Below, one piece after another: positions 9,773 through 52,936 of a stretch of 64,000 bases of DNA. Position 1 is the first letter of the stretch, and every line of letters starts with the position of its first letter. The notes under the pieces were generated by a model. The model did not search any database. It was not told where the DNA came from and saw only the letters and a list, made by a program, of their open reading frames with translations. Origin of the DNA: CBDFMG01 sp965221205 [NCBI: bacterium] (GTDB lineage: Bacteria > SM23-31); assembly GCA_965221205.1 (NCBI GenBank), contig OZ244870.1, forward strand, positions 2,356,001 through 2,420,000, in the 5' to 3' direction. The position numbers were made by a program, and so were the translations under genes.

Positions 9773-10435
9773 TTATACAGCCATCACATCGCAATAGTGA
9801 AATTTTCTTCGTGTCACTTTCTCTCCGGTCTTCATAGACACCGGTTGATGTAAAACAGGTCCGTCAAATACAAACATATGAAATTCCCCATTTTCTCCAC
9901 AGGGACCGACATTATCGGTAAGGTCGTTGAGCAATTCGTAGTCAAACATTCTTCCGGCGAAAGAGGAGTCGAGTACGTCACTGTTGACACAGATTAGGAT
10001 TGCTTGAAACCCAAGTTCTATAGATATTCGTGATAATTTTTGAGTTGACTGTTTTCAAAGCGGAAAAATACCTGAAAAGCTTGACTGTGCAAGAAGTTTT
10101 TCACGGTAACCCTTGAGATCTTTGAGGAAAATATCGCCAAAAGCAGCAGTGTTGATGTCGTTGTTACGAAAATGGTATAAGGTTTCGCTCGTTTCTTCTT
10201 CATATTCTTCGCTGGACGATTGCTGAGAAGTATAAATTTTATGGAGAGGCAAGTTGCGTGCCGCTGTCTGGAGATCGAGCAGTTTTACACAGACACCATG
10301 CATTGGTATCCTGTCATACCCTTCGGTAACATTGGTAATCAATGAAGCTATATGATGTTTTTTTTCATTGAGTAGTTGAAAAAGGGTCAGCAAACTGTCT
10401 TTTCCGCCGTTCCAGGATAGAAGAATAGAACTCAT
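9773..10435 (-). pseudogene. DUF71/COG2102 (Dph6-like) ATPase, interrupted by an in-frame TGA
   Basis: Reading the minus strand from the ATG at 10435 gives a 220-codon frame matching the family length. It opens with the PP-loop ILLSWNGGKDSLLTL and has GIFGD-like AFGDIFLKDLKGYRE; past the lesion come ELGFQAILICVNS and DPCGENGEFHTFV-like GPCGENGEFHMFVFDG. The frame is continuous except for one TGA at 10055-10057, exactly where the family has Trp in its FPLW motif. Relatives amidate diphthine in archaea and eukaryotes; a bacterial subgroup has been predicted from comparative genomics to act in B12 salvage, which fits this riboswitch-controlled operon. Its ATG overlaps the stop of the ECF gene (ATGA). 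A real nonsense mutation, a base-call error and read-through are all possible; truncation would remove the conserved C-terminal domain. Confidence 0.85.
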
Positions 10436-10986
10436 GTTGTTTCCTTTGTCTGGTAGAGTGTTTTGGCTGCTCGAATCAGAATCGGTAAAAGTGTTGCAAA
10501 TAGAATACTGTTCGATGCAATGTGCCATGCTTTCCATGGGATACCTGCTGCAAAAAGCACTGCCATATGCCGCAAAGAAAAGCCCGAAGCAGTACCGGTC
10601 AAAAATGCTAGAATGATTGCAAACATGAGTGTCAGAAATCCCCCGCAGAATCCGAATAAATACATCCGTTTTGCTGTAATGACAGAACTATTGAACGCCC
10701 GACTTGCAATGCCTCCTGCCATACCGATAATTCCATACGATACAACTTGTCCGATGAGCATCGGGGGAAAGGCCAAACCGGAACCCCACGGATTGAAGGC
10801 GGAATAGATAAATTCCGAAAACACACCGATAATCAATCCATTAGACACTCCGTATAAATATCCCCCGAGAAATACAAATAACGTAATCAACTCAATGTTT
10901 GGAAGCGGTACAAAGAGAAAACCGATGACAACACATAAAGCCGAATAGAGCCCTATGCGCACAATGATTGTAGATTCATGATTCAT
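10432..10986 (-). CDS. ECF transporter substrate-binding S component (likely cobamide-related)
   Basis: A 184-residue integral membrane protein with about five to six hydrophobic helices. It has the small-residue-rich pattern of ECF-type S components (GLYSALCVVIGFLFVPLP, then FLGGYLYGVSNGLIIG). S components bind a vitamin and use a shared EcfA/A'/T energising module, which is not encoded in this window. The gene sits between two DUF71 genes, downstream of a B12-type TonB receptor and a cobalamin riboswitch, so a cobalamin or cobamide-precursor substrate is the best inference. The ATG at 10986 has an AGAG upstream; an earlier TTG at 11016 overlapping the preceding stop is also possible. Its stop overlaps the next start as ATGA, suggesting translational coupling. 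Unlike both neighbours it is intact. Confidence 0.75.
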   Translation of the reverse strand: MNHESTIIVRIGLYSALCVVIGFLFVPLPNIELITLFVFLGGYLYGVSNGLIIGVFSEFIYSAFNPWGSGLAFPPMLIGQVVSYGIIGMAGGIASRAFNSSVITAKRMYLFGFCGGFLTLMFAIILAFLTGTASGFSLRHMAVLFAAGIPWKAWHIASNSILFATLLPILIRAAKTLYQTKETT

Positions 10987-11012
10987 AAGTATCTCTATAA
11001 AAGTTGTCCTAT

Positions 11013-11703
11013 TCAAATGAAGGAATAATCCAAAAACCGATAACCTGACCGGAGTACAGTCTTTCCAGCCAAAAGATGAAGAGGGTTTCGGAATAGCGGG
11101 TCTTCTACTGCGACGATATGGTACTCACCCTCTTCACCCGACGGATCAATTCCGGTTTCAATAAATTCATCTATGAGTTGCTGATCCAGAACTCCACCGA
11201 GATGTTTGGGCGGCTTCATCATTCACTGCAACAATGAGTTCCTTAAATCCAGAAATCCAGCGGTAATGAACTCATGGAGCCTGTCCCTGCCAACAACGGC
11301 AATACCGGAATAATACTGGCTGCAGCACAGACTTTTTCTTCCCACGATTTGTGCCGCTCAATATCGATATCACCGAAAATGCCGTGTGTAATGCCCGACT
11401 GTCTAATCTCACAGGCGGCATCGATAAATTTTTCTTCATAGGTAGATCACGAGCTTTGCCGGGTATGAAGAGGTATACCTGACGATGCCGCCTGTGTGCT
11501 TCCATGATTTCTCGGATAATACCGTGAGAATGAGTCCATTCGCCATCTTCGGTGAACATAGTGAGTAAGCGCTCAGGTTTTATACCGGACTGTATTGCCC
11601 GGTAAAGGGCGAGGCAGGAATCTTTACCGCCGCTCCACGAACAGAACGCCGATTTGCTTTTCAGGGAATTCGTGTCCCGGTTTGAATGTATGAGCGCTTT
11701 CAC
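11013..11703 (-). pseudogene. second DUF71/COG2102 (Dph6-like) ATPase, multiply frameshifted
   Basis: The N-terminal part contains the family PP-loop (AFCSWSGGKDSCLALY) and a conserved EDGEWTHSHG segment. About 80 codons in, the reading switches frame: another frame carries STYEEKFIDAACEIRQSGIT, then HGIFGDIDIERHKSWE. Two or three further shifts near 11290-11225 are needed to reach DRLHEFITAGF, a FKELIVAVND segment and finally KPPKHLGGVLDQQLIDEF with GIDPSGEEGEYH. Put together this is a complete DUF71 protein of about 225 residues, broken by at least three indels. It lies directly behind the BtuB-like receptor in the cobalamin riboswitch operon. The multiple lesions argue for real decay. It is a distant paralogue, not a recent copy, of the gene at 9773-10435. 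Confidence 0.85.
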
Positions 11704-11709
11704 CGTAAC

Positions 11710-13647
11710 TTAAAAGTTCACCTTGATGCCGCCGTGCGTGCCTATACCATAGGTGTCAAAACCGGTTGCAACGGTATAGTTTTCATCAAACAAGTTGTTA
11801 ATACTGCCGAAGAGCTGGAGGTTGTCGGATAACATGTGCGATGCTGAAAGATTGACAAGGAGATATCTGTCAAGAACTACACGGTTTGCCGGAAATGTGC
11901 TGAAATCAAAATCGTCACGTTTCCCAATTCCTACGAGTGTGGCATTGAGTTGAGATTTATCTGACAGCCTAAAAGAGCTTCTGACATTGAATTTATTTTT
12001 TGCTCGCCGGATAAGCGGTGCACCGGTATTGCCGTCCTCAGTATCAGTATAGGTGTAACTTACACTTAGTTCGAGTCCGGAAGAGTGGATATAGCTCAGG
12101 AATGTTTCAAGTCCTTCTGTTTTTGCTTCGCTGATATTTTGGTAAGTGAATGTTCCGCTGTCAAAATCGATGAGATTTTCAAAATCGTTTCGGAAATAAG
12201 TGGCTCCGGCGGAAATTCGATTTCTCAAACCATACAATTCTAAACCGATATCAAAACCTTTGCTTTCTTCAGTAGAAAGATTTTCATCACCAAAATTCGA
12301 ATAAAGCTGAAATAGTGAAGGCGATTTAAAACCGGTACCGTACACGGACTTAATTTTGAGATTGTCGGTAATAAAAAGAGAAGGAGCAATTCTGAAGGTA
12401 ACTTTCGATCCGAATTTGTCATGTTTATCGTACCGGATACCGGCTGATGAATAAAAATAGTCTCCAGCATTAAACTGGTCCTGAATAAACAAACCGGTAG
12501 TCCGGGCGTTTTTTTCTAAAAATGTCGAAGGGAACGAGCCAAAGGCGGAAACACTCAAATGGTCTGATGAGCCAATTTCATTTTCCGTTTCAACTCCAAA
12601 CGTAACTGTATTGTTCTCATGTGTATAGAAGTTGTTCTGCCAGTCAAACTTGAGAAGCGTTCCTTTTAAATTGCTCATTCCCATGGATTCGGGATGATCA
12701 TCGTCAAAATTGTTGGTGTTATCACGGTTAAATTTAGTATACGACAGTCCGAATGTCTGTTCGGAATTACTTTCAAATAAAAAAAATTTCGCCTGTCCGC
12801 GTACAAAAAGCTCTTCCCGGTTAAGAATATTATTGGGATCGTCACCACCGATTCCGCCGAAATTATCAATCGAGGATTTTGCATCGAGATAACGGACAAT
12901 AAAATCGGCACTGCTGTTTTCAAATGGTATAAATCCAAAGCGGGTAGAAAAGCTGTTGCGCTCGAAACCATCTTTCTCATTGTTTCCGTCAGATGTGCTG
13001 GCAGCAGAGATGCCGTCGATGTCGAGACGTGAAAATGACAGTGAATAATTGAGTAAACGATTGCCTCCCTGCGAACTAATGCTGTTGCGGAATGTTCCGA
13101 ATGAACCCGCTTCACTCGACAGTGATAATCCCGGTCTGCCGCTTCCGCGCTTGGTGAAAATACTAATGACTCCGGCTATTGCATCTGAACCATAAAGCGT
13201 ACCCTGTGGGCCTCTGAGAACCTCGATTCGTTCTATGTTTTCGGGAGAAAGGGTTGCAAAATCAAAGGATCTTGTTGGTGAAATTGGATCGAGAGCCTCA
13301 ATGCCGTCTATAAGAACTAAGGTATGATTTGAGTTTGCACCACGCATGAAAACCGATGTTTGGCCTCCGATACCGCCAACTTGGACAATATCAAGTGCTG
13401 GTATAGCCTTCAACAGATCAGAAAGAAGATTGTGCCGGCTATCTTCAATCTTACCCGATCCTATTACGGTTACGGAACTGGCAAGTTCTTTATGTGCCGT
13501 TGCAGTTCTGGTCGCAGACACCACAATTTCATCAAGAGTATAATTTTCTAATTCCGTATCTTTTTTAGTATCTTGAGCTTGTGTATTCTGAGGAATACCG
13601 GTGATTGCAACAATTGTGCATATAAATAGTAGTTTCCGATAATTCAT
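11710..13647 (-). CDS. btuB: BtuB-like TonB-dependent cobalamin receptor
   Basis: A 645-residue outer-membrane receptor: signal peptide (about 1-24, ending NTQAQ), TonB box TLDEIVVSA near residue 40, plug domain with VFMRGANSNHTLVLIDG and RIEVLRGPQGTLYGSDAIAG, then a 22-strand-type barrel ending HGGIKVNF. Length and the absence of an N-terminal extension match BtuB-type receptors. The specificity call rests on the cobalamin riboswitch and terminator directly upstream, which predict repression when B12 is plentiful, and on the downstream ECF S component and DUF71 genes. It is the first gene of the minus-strand operon. The next gene starts 7 bases after its stop. Binding of cobalamin itself rather than a related corrinoid cannot be read from the sequence. 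Confidence 0.88.
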   Translation of the reverse strand: MNYRKLLFICTIVAITGIPQNTQAQDTKKDTELENYTLDEIVVSATRTATAHKELASSVTVIGSGKIEDSRHNLLSDLLKAIPALDIVQVGGIGGQTSVFMRGANSNHTLVLIDGIEALDPISPTRSFDFATLSPENIERIEVLRGPQGTLYGSDAIAGVISIFTKRGSGRPGLSLSSEAGSFGTFRNSISSQGGNRLLNYSLSFSRLDIDGISAASTSDGNNEKDGFERNSFSTRFGFIPFENSSADFIVRYLDAKSSIDNFGGIGGDDPNNILNREELFVRGQAKFFLFESNSEQTFGLSYTKFNRDNTNNFDDDHPESMGMSNLKGTLLKFDWQNNFYTHENNTVTFGVETENEIGSSDHLSVSAFGSFPSTFLEKNARTTGLFIQDQFNAGDYFYSSAGIRYDKHDKFGSKVTFRIAPSLFITDNLKIKSVYGTGFKSPSLFQLYSNFGDENLSTEESKGFDIGLELYGLRNRISAGATYFRNDFENLIDFDSGTFTYQNISEAKTEGLETFLSYIHSSGLELSVSYTYTDTEDGNTGAPLIRRAKNKFNVRSSFRLSDKSQLNATLVGIGKRDDFDFSTFPANRVVLDRYLLVNLSASHMLSDNLQLFGSINNLFDENYTVATGFDTYGIGTHGGIKVNF

Positions 13648-13750
13648 TCAATTCTCCTTTATGAATAAAGTATGTTGCGGGTAGAAAGTAGACCGTAACC
13701 TTCGGAAAGGCAATGCTGCGGCAGATCGGAAAAAATTCCGCCAGGGGCAT

Positions 13751-13782
13751 AAAAAACCCCATCGTCGAAGAAAGGATGCGGG
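13751..13782 (-). terminator. intrinsic terminator of the cobalamin riboswitch expression platform
   Basis: On the minus strand a stem CCC(G)CATC pairs with GATGGGG across an 11-base loop and is followed directly by six T residues. It lies between the aptamer and btuB, where a riboswitch-controlled transcription terminator is expected. This suggests attenuation, not only translational control. Confidence 0.65.
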
Positions 13783-13802
13783 AAATATCATTTATTCTGC
13801 AC

Positions 13803-13998
13803 TTACCTCACCCTCGAAGGAGTTGCACGGTTCTATGTTAAACCAGTTCCAGTCAACAGCAGGTTTCCTGACTTCGGCTTCTAACCTACTCGCTCACCTT
13901 CCCATCCCGGTATTCCGGAACAGTGGTTTGAATGAGCTTTCGTAGCCGTTACAGTAACGGGGTTGTAACGGAATTGCACCGTTTTCCCTTCACTGCTG
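13803..13998 (-). promoter_or_regulatory. cobalamin (AdoCbl) riboswitch
   Basis: The minus strand carries the conserved cobalamin-aptamer blocks in order: a GGTGCAATTCCG segment near the 5' end, a GTAACTGTAACGG-like core, GGGAAGGTGAGCGA, and the B12 box AAGTCAGGAAACCTGCT at about 13858-13874. The final GTGCAACTCC lies towards the 3' side. It sits between a good sigma70-type promoter and a terminator in front of btuB. It should sense adenosylcobalamin and shut off the receptor/ECF/DUF71 operon when the cofactor is abundant. Confidence 0.93.
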
Positions 13999-14043
13999 AC
14001 TAAGTGTAAAAATTAATGTTCCAACTAATTTGTTGATGATACC

Positions 14044-14072
14044 AGTATATGAAACAATTTGGCTTATGTCAA
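14044..14072 (-). promoter_or_regulatory. sigma70-type promoter of the B12 operon
   Basis: On the minus strand TTGACA (14067-14072) and TATACT (14044-14049) are separated by exactly 17 bases, a near-consensus match. Transcription would start about 40 bases before the cobalamin aptamer, as expected for the leader RNA. Confidence 0.75.
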
Positions 14073-34707: not shown

Positions 34708-35125
34708 ATGACCATTTTTTCTAGAGGCAAGGCGCAAAAATCAGGAGAATATGAAATTCACGATATGATTGAAAAAACTTTTGATAAGGGAGATATCATT
34801 ATCCGTGAAGGCGAAAACGATACGGGAGCTTATAAAATTATTGAAGATGAAGATGAAGTTGAAGTTTCAATCAGAAGTGAGAGTTCAGATATTAAACTTG
34901 CCGCACTCGGTAAAGGCGCCATTTTTGGTGAAATGAGTCTCATCGATCAAAAACCCCATTCAGCTACAGTTACTGCGCTCACCGAAGTTGAATGCACATT
35001 GGTTGATAAAGATTAGATTTGAAAATGAACTCAAGGAATCGAGCCCTATAATACAGGAAATTCTTCATGCATTCAGTGAGAGATTGCGCGGTGCAGATGA
35101 TAGGGTTTGCTCGCAAGTAAGCTGA
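34708..35125 (+). pseudogene. small cyclic-nucleotide-binding-domain protein, frameshifted near its C-terminus
   Basis: The first 102 codons encode a cNMP-binding (CAP_ED) domain: FDKGDIIIREGENDTGAYKI, a beta-roll ending in LGKGAIFGEMSLIDQKPHSA (the phosphate-binding cassette lacks the usual Arg-Ala pair, having HSA), then a stop at 35016. Shifting by one base just before the stop continues the family's C-terminal helices (RFENELKESSPIIQEILHAF, SERLRGADD) to a TGA at 35125, giving about 138 residues. There is no DNA-binding domain, so it would be a stand-alone sensor. One of three related proteins in the window; the lesion is a single indel and could be a sequencing artefact. Confidence 0.65.
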
Positions 35126-36939: not shown

Positions 36940-37611
36940 TTGTACGGTAAACTAAGGGAAAGTAACGCGCAAGAAGCCGAACCATTAACTATAGAGAACT
37001 TAACCGGGCGCCAAAAAGCATCGATTCTGGTTATTGCAATCGGTACAGAAGCAGCATCGCAAATATTTAAACATCTTAAAGACAAAGATGTTGAACGGCC
37101 TGCTGTAGAGATTGCAGACATGAAGGATATTCTTTCGACAATAATGGAAGCAGTCATCGAGGAATTCTGCCAGATGATCATGGATCAGGAGTATATCTCT
37201 CACGGCAACATAGACTATGCAAAAGGTGTCCTCGAAAAAGCCGTTGGTCCGAGAAAAGCACATGAAGTTATCATGAAGTTATATCGAAAGTAGAATCGGC
37301 AATCCACGTTAGTGGTTTTACGCTCCTAAAAGACGTCGATCCGAACCAGTTGCTAAACTTTATTCAGCACGAACATCCCCAGACAATTTCGCTGATATTA
37401 GCGAATGACGAATTAAAGGATTCAATATTCAGGAATATGTCTGAGCGGGCTGCTAATCTTATTCAAAGAAGAACTTGAATTTATGGGTCCGGTCTGTTTG
37501 AAGGATGTTGAAGAAGCACAGATGAAGATAGTTGATATTGTTCGGACACTCGAAAAAGACGGTGAAATCGTCATTTCTGGCCGTGGTGGAGAAGAAGAGA
37601 TTATAGCATAA
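36940..37611 (+). pseudogene. fliG: fliG (flagellar motor switch) relic with internal deletion
   Basis: The N-terminal FliG domain is readable to about 37293 (LTGRQKASILVIAIGTEAAS, VLEKAVGPRKAHEVI). In a second frame the middle starts GFTLLKDVDPNQLLNFIQHE with HPQTISLILAN and then jumps directly to the C-terminal torque region DSIFRNMSERAANLI, so roughly a hundred or more codons are missing. A further frameshift leads to ELEFMGPVCLKDVEEAQMKI and the GRGGEEEIIA tail with a TAA at 37611. FliG couples ion flow to rotor torque; this copy cannot work. The internal deletion excludes simple sequencing error. An intact IS element begins 56 bases downstream. Confidence 0.92.
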
Positions 37612-37741: not shown

Positions 37742-38029
37742 ATGGCACGTAGAATTCACACATCAGAACAAATTATCCACAAGCTTCGAGAGGCAGAAGT
37801 ACTGCTCGCTCAAGGTCAGTCGGTTCAACAAGCTGCTCGCCAGATTGAGGTTACAGAGCAGACCTATTATCGTTGGCGAAAGGAGTATGGTGGTCTTCGG
37901 GTGAATCAGGCGAAACGATTGAAAGCGTTAGAGAGAGAGAATATTCGCCTGAAACGCCTGGTTGCCGAGAAAGAGTTGGATATTCAAATCCTCAATGAGA
38001 CTCTGGCGGTTGATGCAAAAAACTTCTGA
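37742..38029 (+). CDS. IS3-family transposase OrfA
   Basis: A 95-residue OrfA with an N-terminal helix-turn-helix (RRIHTSEQIIHKLREAEVLL, then ARQIEVTEQTYYRWRKEYGG) and a C-terminal leucine zipper (LKALERENIRLKRLVAEKE), the standard layout for DNA-end recognition and multimerisation. An AAAGGAG precedes the ATG. Near the 3' end, AAAAAAC at 38017-38023 is in the A_AAA_AAC phase used for programmed -1 frameshifting; shifting there joins OrfA to OrfB to give the active OrfAB transposase, while unshifted ribosomes stop at the TGA six bases later. Confidence 0.9.
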   Translation: MARRIHTSEQIIHKLREAEVLLAQGQSVQQAARQIEVTEQTYYRWRKEYGGLRVNQAKRLKALERENIRLKRLVAEKELDIQILNETLAVDAKNF

Positions 38030-42528: not shown

Positions 42529-43678
42529 TCAGCATATTTTCTGTTTCATTGAATATTTGCGAAGTGCCTCTTCATCGAGATTGAATCCAAGCCCTGGTGA
42601 ATCTGGTACACGAATGTAACCGTCCTCAACTATCACTTTCGGTTTGATAATACTCTCCTTATATATGGAAAGCTCTGTAAATTCACATGCATAGGGAAGG
42701 TGTTTCATCGAAGCAGTCAAATGGAGTTTCGCACCCACAGTAAAACCCGGAACTATTTCATTTCCAATTCCCCAAGACAGCCCGTATGCTTCTGCAATTG
42801 CCTCAACTGATTTTGCAGGAAACAATCCACCTGCTTTTTGCAAGCTTTATATTGACAATATCTACAGCATCTTTATGGGCTAAAGCAACAACATCTCCGG
42901 GCAGCCAGATACTTTCGTCTGCCATCAGGGGTGTGTTTATATTTTTCCGAATCTTGGCAAGTCCGTCAATATTTTGTGGATTAATCGGCTGCTCAAGGAA
43001 CTCAAGATTGCAGTAATCGAGCACCTTCATTGCTTCAATGGTTTCATTGACTCCCCAAGAACAGTTCGGATCAAGTCTTAATATAATCGCATTTCCAAGC
43101 GCACCTCTCACTGCTTGAACTTTGTCGATATCACCGCGAATGTCGTGTGATCCCTTTAGTTTTAAAACATTTATGCCCTTTTTGATGAATGTCTTTGCAT
43201 TGCGTATCATAGCTTCCTTAGTATCAATGCCGAGCTCGCTTGCAATGGGGATTTTGTCCCTATATCGTCCACCAAGCAAGGTGCAGACCGGAACACTGAG
43301 TATTTTCCCCACAAGGTCATGCAAAGCAAGATCGACACCCTCTTTTGCACCGGGACATTTTGCAACGGCACGATCAATTTTTGAAAGAAGAGGACGGAGA
43401 TGGCAAGGATTGTGTCCAATTAGGATAGGTGTGAAGTAGTTTTTTATTATCAGTTCAACTGTCTCAAGTGTTTCCCCGTAAAATGTCGGTTCCCATGCGC
43501 ATGATTCACCAATACCGGTATGACCGCTATCAGTCGAAATTACTACTACAACCGAATTCGACGTAGAAATACTTTCATGCGCATCAGCAAAATCATGAAT
43601 AGGAACCGCAATGGGATAGGTCTTGACGTGTGTAATTGTTACATTTTCAAGTTGCTCAGGCATGGAAGAATCACTCAT
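42529..43678 (-). pseudogene. enolase-superfamily (muconate cycloisomerase/Ala-Glu epimerase-like) gene with one frameshift
   Basis: From the ATG at 43678 about 280 codons encode a mandelate racemase/muconate lactonizing-type enzyme: capping N-domain (THVKTYPIAVPIHDF), the KLKGSHD lysine motif, metal ligands in RLDPNCSW, LEFLEQPI and LMADESIW. At about 42845 the frame breaks; reading one base differently continues with LQKAGGLFPAKSVEAIAEAY and the C-terminal DSPGLGFNLDEEALRKY to the stop at 42529. An extra T in AAGCTTGCAAAAAG explains the shift. The joined protein would be about 380 residues, a normal length. It lies upstream of dapA. Substrate cannot be told; L-Ala-D/L-Glu or N-acylamino-acid chemistry are options. 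Confidence 0.8.
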
Positions 43679-52743: not shown

Positions 52744-52787
52744 TGCATAAATTAGTACCTTTCTTACAAATTTTATTATTTATGTAT

Positions 52788-52904
52788 CTATCTTCGGGGC
52801 CGGGTGAAATTCCCGACCGGCGGTTACAGCCCGCGAGTTGCACCTGCAGCAGGAATCGGTGAAATTCCGATGCCGACGGTTACAGTCCGGATGGGAGAAG
52901 ATAG
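52788..52904 (+). promoter_or_regulatory. FMN riboswitch (RFN element)
   Basis: All conserved RFN blocks are present: GGGTGAAATTCCCGACCGGC, GGTTACAGCCCGCGAG, GCAGGAATCGGTGAAATTCC, GCCGACGGTTACAGTCC and GGATGGGAGAAGA. The closing P1 stem is CTATCTTC (52788-52795) with GAAGATAG (52897-52904). It sits directly before ribD and should repress the riboflavin genes when FMN is high. Confidence 0.97.
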
Positions 52905-52936
52905 AGCAGGTAAGGTGTATTGTATACCTGACATGC

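Follow-up and report, generated by a model that had tools for sequence, protein, structure and literature searches.

A subgroup of the bacterial DUF71 (PF01902) proteins, DUF71-B12, has been tied to B12 salvage in a 2012 study of gene clusters, which in the sections used here leaves the chemistry open (PMC3541065). These sections describe DUF71 genes beside B12 transport genes and an ENGEF/YH motif that takes the place of the Glu motif of Dph6, and they argue, from the exclusion between DUF71-B12 and CbiZ in bacteria, that DUF71-B12 fills the bacterial role of this amidohydrolase, which belongs to a separate family. An earlier note on the DNA studied here had pointed to that prediction, and the 2012 study does contain it. 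The DNA is a window of 64,000 nucleotides from CBDFMG01 sp965221205 (contig OZ244870.1, positions 2,356,001 to 2,420,000), in which a cobalamin riboswitch precedes genes for a BtuB-like TonB-dependent receptor, a first DUF71 protein (D1), an S component of the energy-coupling factor (ECF) type and a second DUF71 protein (D2). Sequence comparisons point to a corrinoid uptake operon under riboswitch control, made up of the BtuB-like receptor and a CbrT-type S component, in which the DUF71 enzymes have decayed, and we regard this as the probable explanation of the locus.

Three kinds of described system bear on the transport genes. In operons headed by btuB cobalamin riboswitches the aptamer lies in the leader of a TonB-dependent receptor gene, as it does here; however, in the window no switching element 3' of the aptamer was identified by a terminator scan or by folding. 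ECF-CbrT (PDB entry 6FNP) is described, in the part of the paper available, as a transporter of cobalamin and cobinamide (PMC5997447). Its S component is of the same family as that of the window by profile, but the window operon includes a BtuB-like receptor gene, no ECF module was recognised near it, and the identity of its S component to family members is 20-25%. Many cobalamin-auxotrophic Gram-negative bacteria have BtuB while BtuCDF is missing, and the available text notes that substitutes in the inner membrane had been predicted because their genes adjoin btuB (PMC6072759). BtuM, a solitary S component treated in the same text, is like the window protein small, located in the inner membrane and encoded next to btuB in the absence of BtuCDF. 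A phmmer search of the PDB with the window protein, however, gave no BtuM chain up to an E of 10, and the nearest family found is that of CbrT. The operon looks like a case of BtuB without BtuCDF, with a CbrT-type protein. From the DUF71-B12 gene clusters the window differs in having an ECF S component with no BtuF or BtuC found nearby, and in holding two DUF71 copies from two clades, both broken, in one operon.

Within the retrieved portions of the open-access literature we found no description of CbrT, BtuB and a riboswitch in combination and no demonstration of DUF71-B12 chemistry or cobamide activity. In the retrieved text of papers since 2013 that deal with cobalamin, DUF71 appears only in reference lists; one later paper, as far as its text was retrieved, cites the 2012 study for dph6, and the retrieved text of PMC2667541 makes no mention of DUF71.

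Riboswitch, receptor and S component

On the minus strand, from 14072 to 9773, the order is promoter match, riboswitch, receptor, D1, S component and D2 (Table 1). The genes are co-oriented and tightly packed, with the ATG of D2 overlapping the stop codon of the S component gene. The earlier note had read the order of aptamer, receptor, DUF71, S component and DUF71 on a single strand from the letters, and matches to RF00174, PF01902, PF12822 and the receptor families bear it out. The covariance-model check that it had proposed for the cobalamin riboswitch was clear, with RF00174 matching well over its gathering score of 31.5 (E 2.2e-20). Its promoter held in part: the match to the consensus is good, but chance alone would give 2.0 sites that reach the scan's lowest accepted quality in the stretch scanned, which makes it suggestive only. 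The terminator placed after the aptamer was not recovered: a scan gave no hit, and the leader sequence from the aptamer to the receptor gene showed no folding advantage over shuffled versions (z 0.23 and -0.70). Control of the operon may act at the level of translation or through another leader structure.

Of 34 families compared with the intact receptor, TIGR01779 (B12 receptor) ranked first (318.9 bits), and the domain models PF00593 and PF07715 scored 135 and 92 bits. Because the TIGR01779 score does not reach the equivalog cut-off of 599.7 bits, the receptor is named BtuB-like only, in which form the earlier identification stands. Its place behind a cobalamin riboswitch makes a corrinoid the likely ligand.

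The S component gene is likewise intact, and its protein scores 32.6 bits against PF12822 (cut-off 30.7), a general family. As a single query against the PDB it gave nothing useful, and its predicted structure (mean pLDDT 49.4) was too poor for use. Relatives were collected by likeness to the window protein from 299 Bacillota genomes, 28 of which had a match at E up to 0.01, and 18 of the 29 places were fetched. A profile from 16 phmmer-linked relatives gave values below 1e-40 at 17 of these 18 loci, the other being L216, itself one of the 16 (4.6e-20). When a profile was made of 13 relatives without the window protein, it matched the window protein with 57.9 bits (E 5.1e-16) and nothing else among 9,559 segments; since the 13 had been found by likeness to that protein, the score measures fit and is not an independent discovery. 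What does not depend on this selection is the identity of the family. One relative alone (L202) matched the S component of 6FNP at 4.4e-20, and the family alignment, window row included, did so at 1.8e-32; 4hzu_S, the PDB chain that came next, reached 2.8e-4. A cobalamin riboswitch was present in 4 of the 10 Bacillota S-component loci tested. In L202 it is followed by genes for a DUF4430 protein, the S component and a cobalamin adenosyltransferase, and in L201 by those for a DUF4430-domain surface protein, another DUF4430 protein, a protein of no assigned family, a double-ABC-domain ATPase and the S component.

On the strength of the profile fit, the family match to 6FNP and the riboswitches in the loci of its relatives, the window S component is most reasonably regarded as a divergent member of the CbrT family, and this likeness lends support to corrinoid uptake. 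At 20-25% identity to its relatives, we infer its substrate rather than read it from a close homologue. Substrates may change within S-component families, and CblT-like uptake of alpha-ribazole is an example of precursor transport. At such low identity the protein might carry a B12 precursor or a lower-ligand building block on which DUF71 would act, but this is very unlikely given that CbrT is the nearest family found and that the gene follows that of a BtuB-like receptor in a window where no BtuF or BtuC homologues were found.

Two other observations concern S components and their loci. In one of the loci L201 and L202 a cell-wall anchor and a weak squalene-cyclase-like match accompany the DUF4430 proteins, a make-up that we take to resemble vertebrate transcobalamin. 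In five Bacteroidota genomes with similar loci (L170-L174) a different ECF S component adjoins a Peripla_BP_2 (BtuF-type) binding protein; L172, the one scanned, also has a GntR regulator, an AIR-synthase-like protein and an ABC ATPase, and no riboswitch was found in these short loci. Elsewhere in the window, an FMN riboswitch precedes ribD, with ribBA following.

Table 1. Positions of the operon features and of other features of the window that are discussed
Feature	Position	Strand	Evidence
Sigma-70-like promoter TTGACA-17-TATACT	14044..14072	-	11/12 consensus positions
Cobalamin riboswitch aptamer RF00174	13841..14012	-	88.0 bits, full model 1-189
BtuB-like TonB-dependent receptor, intact, 645 aa	11710..13647	-	PF00593, PF07715, TIGR01779 matches
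D1, broken DUF71/PF01902 gene	11013..11703	-	PF01902 pieces in three frames
CbrT-family-like ECF S component, intact, 184 aa	10432..10986	-	PF12822 and CbrT-like profile
D2, DUF71/PF01902 gene with one in-frame TGA	9773..10435	-	PF01902 pieces; ENGEFH motif
Cyclic-nucleotide-binding domain piece	34723-35013	+	in a stretch without a long open frame
FliG gene	36973-37608	+	three pieces, alternating frames
Transposase helix-turn-helix (HTH) piece	37742-38026		
Enolase-superfamily (muconate cycloisomerase/epimerase-like) gene	42532-43678	-	C-terminal part in another frame
FMN riboswitch	52786-52906	+	115.6 bits

Two DUF71 genes and their damage

Scored piece by piece against PF01902 (cut-off 23.2), D2 gave 45.3 and 53.0 bits and D1 gave 26.9, 17.9 (under the cut-off) and 24.3 bits. 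The motif of D1, EEGEYH, is one residue off the ENGEF/YH of the DUF71-B12 subgroup, and ENGE[FY]H is found in all seven relatives sampled from its clade. In both copies His replaces the Glu of the EGGE/DXE motif of Dph6, and the Dph6 model TIGR03679 reached at best 36.3 bits against a cut-off of 197.3, a value low by construction since gene pieces were scored. The cobalamin riboswitch and the BtuB-like gene on the same strand provide the neighbourhood of the DUF71-B12 type. Two DUF71 copies are present, as the earlier note had proposed, and neither of the refuting outcomes that it had named came about: the riboswitch is real, and the missing Glu motif and relatives that often lie in B12 clusters speak against the diphthamide type.

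For comparison, 121 relatives were aligned with the two window copies; one of 122 matches, shorter than about 120 residues, was dropped before alignment, and five weak or partial PF01902 places were left out of the fetched set. Both genes are damaged, as the earlier note had seen. D1 changes frame four times between about 11446 and 11206, a stretch of about 240 bases that includes an 8-base tandem repeat (11245-11260). D2 has an in-frame TGA at 10057-10055, where all 121 relatives carry Trp. A genuine code in which TGA means Trp was considered and rejected, as 16 of the 44 listed open reading frames (ORFs) of the window end in TGA. Both copies have also lost the residue after the motif His, which is Thr in 108 and Ser in 13 of the 121 relatives and which the part of the 2012 paper used counts among the ATP-phosphate contacts, as T189 (PMC3541065). 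At 22 near-invariant columns D1 deviates five times and D2 three times, one of these being the stop, while the 105 relatives in this count deviate at most twice (median 0); the other 16 had been dropped (14 rows of a short clade, the fragment L129 and the outlier L072).

Damage of this kind could also come from sequencing or assembly errors over genes that are intact in the organism, in which case the operon would form a full uptake and remodelling route. The FliG gene, close to the transposase HTH piece, and the epimerase-like gene are frame-disrupted too, and the cyclic-nucleotide-binding piece is perhaps a third disrupted gene, so errors may be spread over the contig. We nevertheless think this explanation unlikely. 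At least 14 conserved genes of the window, trkA included, match their families near end to end in one frame, the frame changes of D1 are confined to a short stretch with its tandem repeat, and the Thr or Ser was lost from both copies by substitution. In our judgement decay is clearly favoured over sequence error, because of the many genes that read through and because the breaks of D1 cluster.

DUF71 clades and their neighbourhoods

Counts of DUF71, PF12822 and CbiZ were taken from 395 Bacteroidota genomes and treated as one common draw. In a comparison with 198 Bacteroidota genomes, 190 of which gave a match, the highest identity to the PyrG of the window was 69%. PF01902 occurs in 112 of them at E up to 0.001, and in 110 over the cut-off. 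In the tree of the aligned DUF71 proteins, D1 groups with G492, G539, G151, G062, G415, G468 and G089 in an eight-row clade (support 100/92). D2 belongs to the large clade that remains, where its closest neighbours are G211 and G044, though not with strong support. The exact places of both are unsure because both window rows have long branches. The B12-linked DUF71 proteins thus appear to split into two clades, and those of D1 and D2 seem to differ in habits. A third, short clade of 14 Bacteroidota rows (L156-L168 and L066) has motifs such as HQNI and GENGEFHTK; B12 genes were found near none of the 14, a result that covers gene context only, with no riboswitch check.

Riboswitches were sought in 39 of 120 DUF71 loci and found in 28, a figure that is not that of a random sample since part of the loci, L055 apart, had been chosen for earlier B12-gene matches. 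Six of the seven sampled D1-clade members have B12 genes nearby, and five have a riboswitch in the locus. In three (G089, G062 and G415) the D1-type gene is flanked by cobU and a bluB-cobT fusion, with cobS next, a cobC-like phosphatase gene after cobS in the two tested, and btuF and btuC on the opposite strand; in these three loci the riboswitch heads btuB rather than the DUF71 gene. The D1-type gene is downstream of the riboswitch in two of the seven. In one of the 395 genomes, G492 (L054), D1-type and D2-type genes stand in tandem in a riboswitch-led btu operon, where a single riboswitch heads btuF-btuC-btuD-btuB-D1-D2 with all frames open. A D2-type gene is co-present in five of the seven D1-bearing genomes, against 95 of 395 overall (P 0.010, kinship uncorrected).

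For D2's clade the connection with B12 is mixed. A B12 context was found in 24 of its 99 rows, which is a lower bound because the riboswitch check covered 32 of the 99. In genomes with both types, the D2-type gene stands beside peptidase M1 and recG (L062) or beside an Asp/Asn hydroxylase and a patatin gene (L056), and no riboswitch was found in L056, L058, L060 or L062. A purely B12-linked D2 type was rejected on account of these mixed contexts. They would suit the view that both copies are DUF71 proteins of a general bacterial sort, carried along in the operon, and not B12 enzymes. This is distinctly unlikely, however, with B12 genes beside nearly all sampled D1-clade members, D2-type genes found in many loci behind a riboswitch-controlled receptor gene, and the tandem pair of G492 placed in a btuFCD-btuB operon.

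Riboswitch, receptor and DUF71 genes follow one another directly in L061, L088, L111, L119 and L135. The 28 loci with a riboswitch hold 29 DUF71 rows; in 24 of these the DUF71 gene follows the riboswitch on its own strand, and every intervening ORF of more than 100 aa has the same orientation. These counts make a DUF71 gene downstream of riboswitch and receptor common among riboswitch-bearing loci, as the 2012 gene-cluster study would predict (PMC3541065). The relatives with intact copies that the earlier note had named as the better test system do exist in Bacteroidota, where riboswitch, btuB and DUF71 recur with intact frames. The recurrence of btuB, DUF71, ECF S component and DUF71 that it had asked after is met with in part: besides this shorter order the D1-D2 tandem occurs once, but the full order was seen in the window only and met with neither in the 395 Bacteroidota genomes nor in the 18 Bacillota S-component loci. 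In two loci a DUF5074 gene comes after a riboswitch-led TonB receptor gene, at 8715-9839 in L005, directly before DUF71, and at 12914-13972 in L063; genes of similar size, judged by size, hold that position in L064, L065, L073, L122 and L134. The loci with intact frames can serve as test systems, among them that of Chryseosolibacter histidini (L005) with riboswitch, TonB receptor, DUF5074 and DUF71.

PF12822 matches at E up to 0.001 occur in 64 of the Bacteroidota genomes (10 above the cut-off), and a comparison of the place lists put none of them near a DUF71 place. A search with the single S component sequence in one Bacteroidota class, run without a positive control, gave 0 of 245, and no relatives were found in viral contigs or plasmids. 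The 18 fetched Bacillota S-component loci hold no DUF71, and five of the 28 Bacillota genomes with an S-component match also carry one. One genome (G745) carries a DUF71 gene and, about 7 kb away on the same strand, a CbrT-like gene; the pairing was taken as coincidence because NUBPL and iron-sulphur NTPase genes precede the DUF71 gene and a riboswitch sits between.

CbiZ, the proposed functional counterpart of DUF71, was found in nine of the 395 genomes; none of the nine has DUF71, which is present in 112 of 395 overall (P 0.048, kinship uncorrected). The test agrees weakly with a CbiZ-like role.

Probable uptake and the possible part of DUF71

Under the explanation preferred here, low cellular cobalamin would let the leader permit expression of the operon, the BtuB-like receptor would bring cobalamin or cobinamide into the periplasm, and the CbrT-like S component would carry the corrinoid through the inner membrane together with an ECF module whose genes lie at another place. 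In an ancestor, the two DUF71 ATP-pyrophosphatases would have acted on the imported corrinoid, most likely remodelling unsuitable cobamides at the amide-linked nucleotide loop in the manner of CbiZ. With both now decayed, uptake alone would remain. The earlier note had proposed a route of uptake and remodelling. Its uptake half gains support from the CbrT-like S component, but since both DUF71 genes are broken, only uptake can be inferred to operate in the window. What probably works is cobalamin-controlled uptake through the receptor and the S component of CbrT type, and the presumed DUF71 step in corrinoid remodelling follows the 2012 argument on CbiZ.

Several points weigh against this explanation. 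The receptor scores under the BtuB equivalog cut-off. For the S component, no NCBIfam model matches at E up to 0.01, the relatives were found through likeness to the window protein itself and their identity to it is low, and no ECF module (EcfA, EcfA', EcfT) was recognised among the window genes scanned, a subset of all. CbrT by itself, in the part of the paper available, gave no growth of an E. coli uptake mutant (PMC5997447). The frame disruptions elsewhere in the window mean that part of the damage might be sequence error. As to DUF71, near-identity within the D1 clade (L055 and L057; G468 and G089) means that not all of its members are independent; in three of the five riboswitch-bearing D1-clade loci the gene headed by the riboswitch is btuB, not DUF71; 75 of the 99 D2-clade rows gave no B12 context; and the test of non-co-occurrence with CbiZ is weak.

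A further reading, to which we would give only a small chance, is that D1 and D2 act as a pair in two successive ATP-dependent steps on imported corrinoids, with the S component replacing BtuCDF behind the BtuB-like receptor. The D1-D2 tandem of G492 and the co-presence of both types would be traces of such a pair.

As a B12 operon the locus has good support; its gene set is mostly of a known kind, and what is unusual is the CbrT-type S component together with paired DUF71 genes, both apparently decayed. Two things are new here: a recognisable cobalamin-family transporter joins a DUF71-B12 operon, and the B12-linked DUF71 proteins appear to fall into two clades. If the damage is real, the window is a natural case of loss in which the transport genes were kept and both DUF71 genes were lost, which would argue that DUF71 is not needed for uptake itself.

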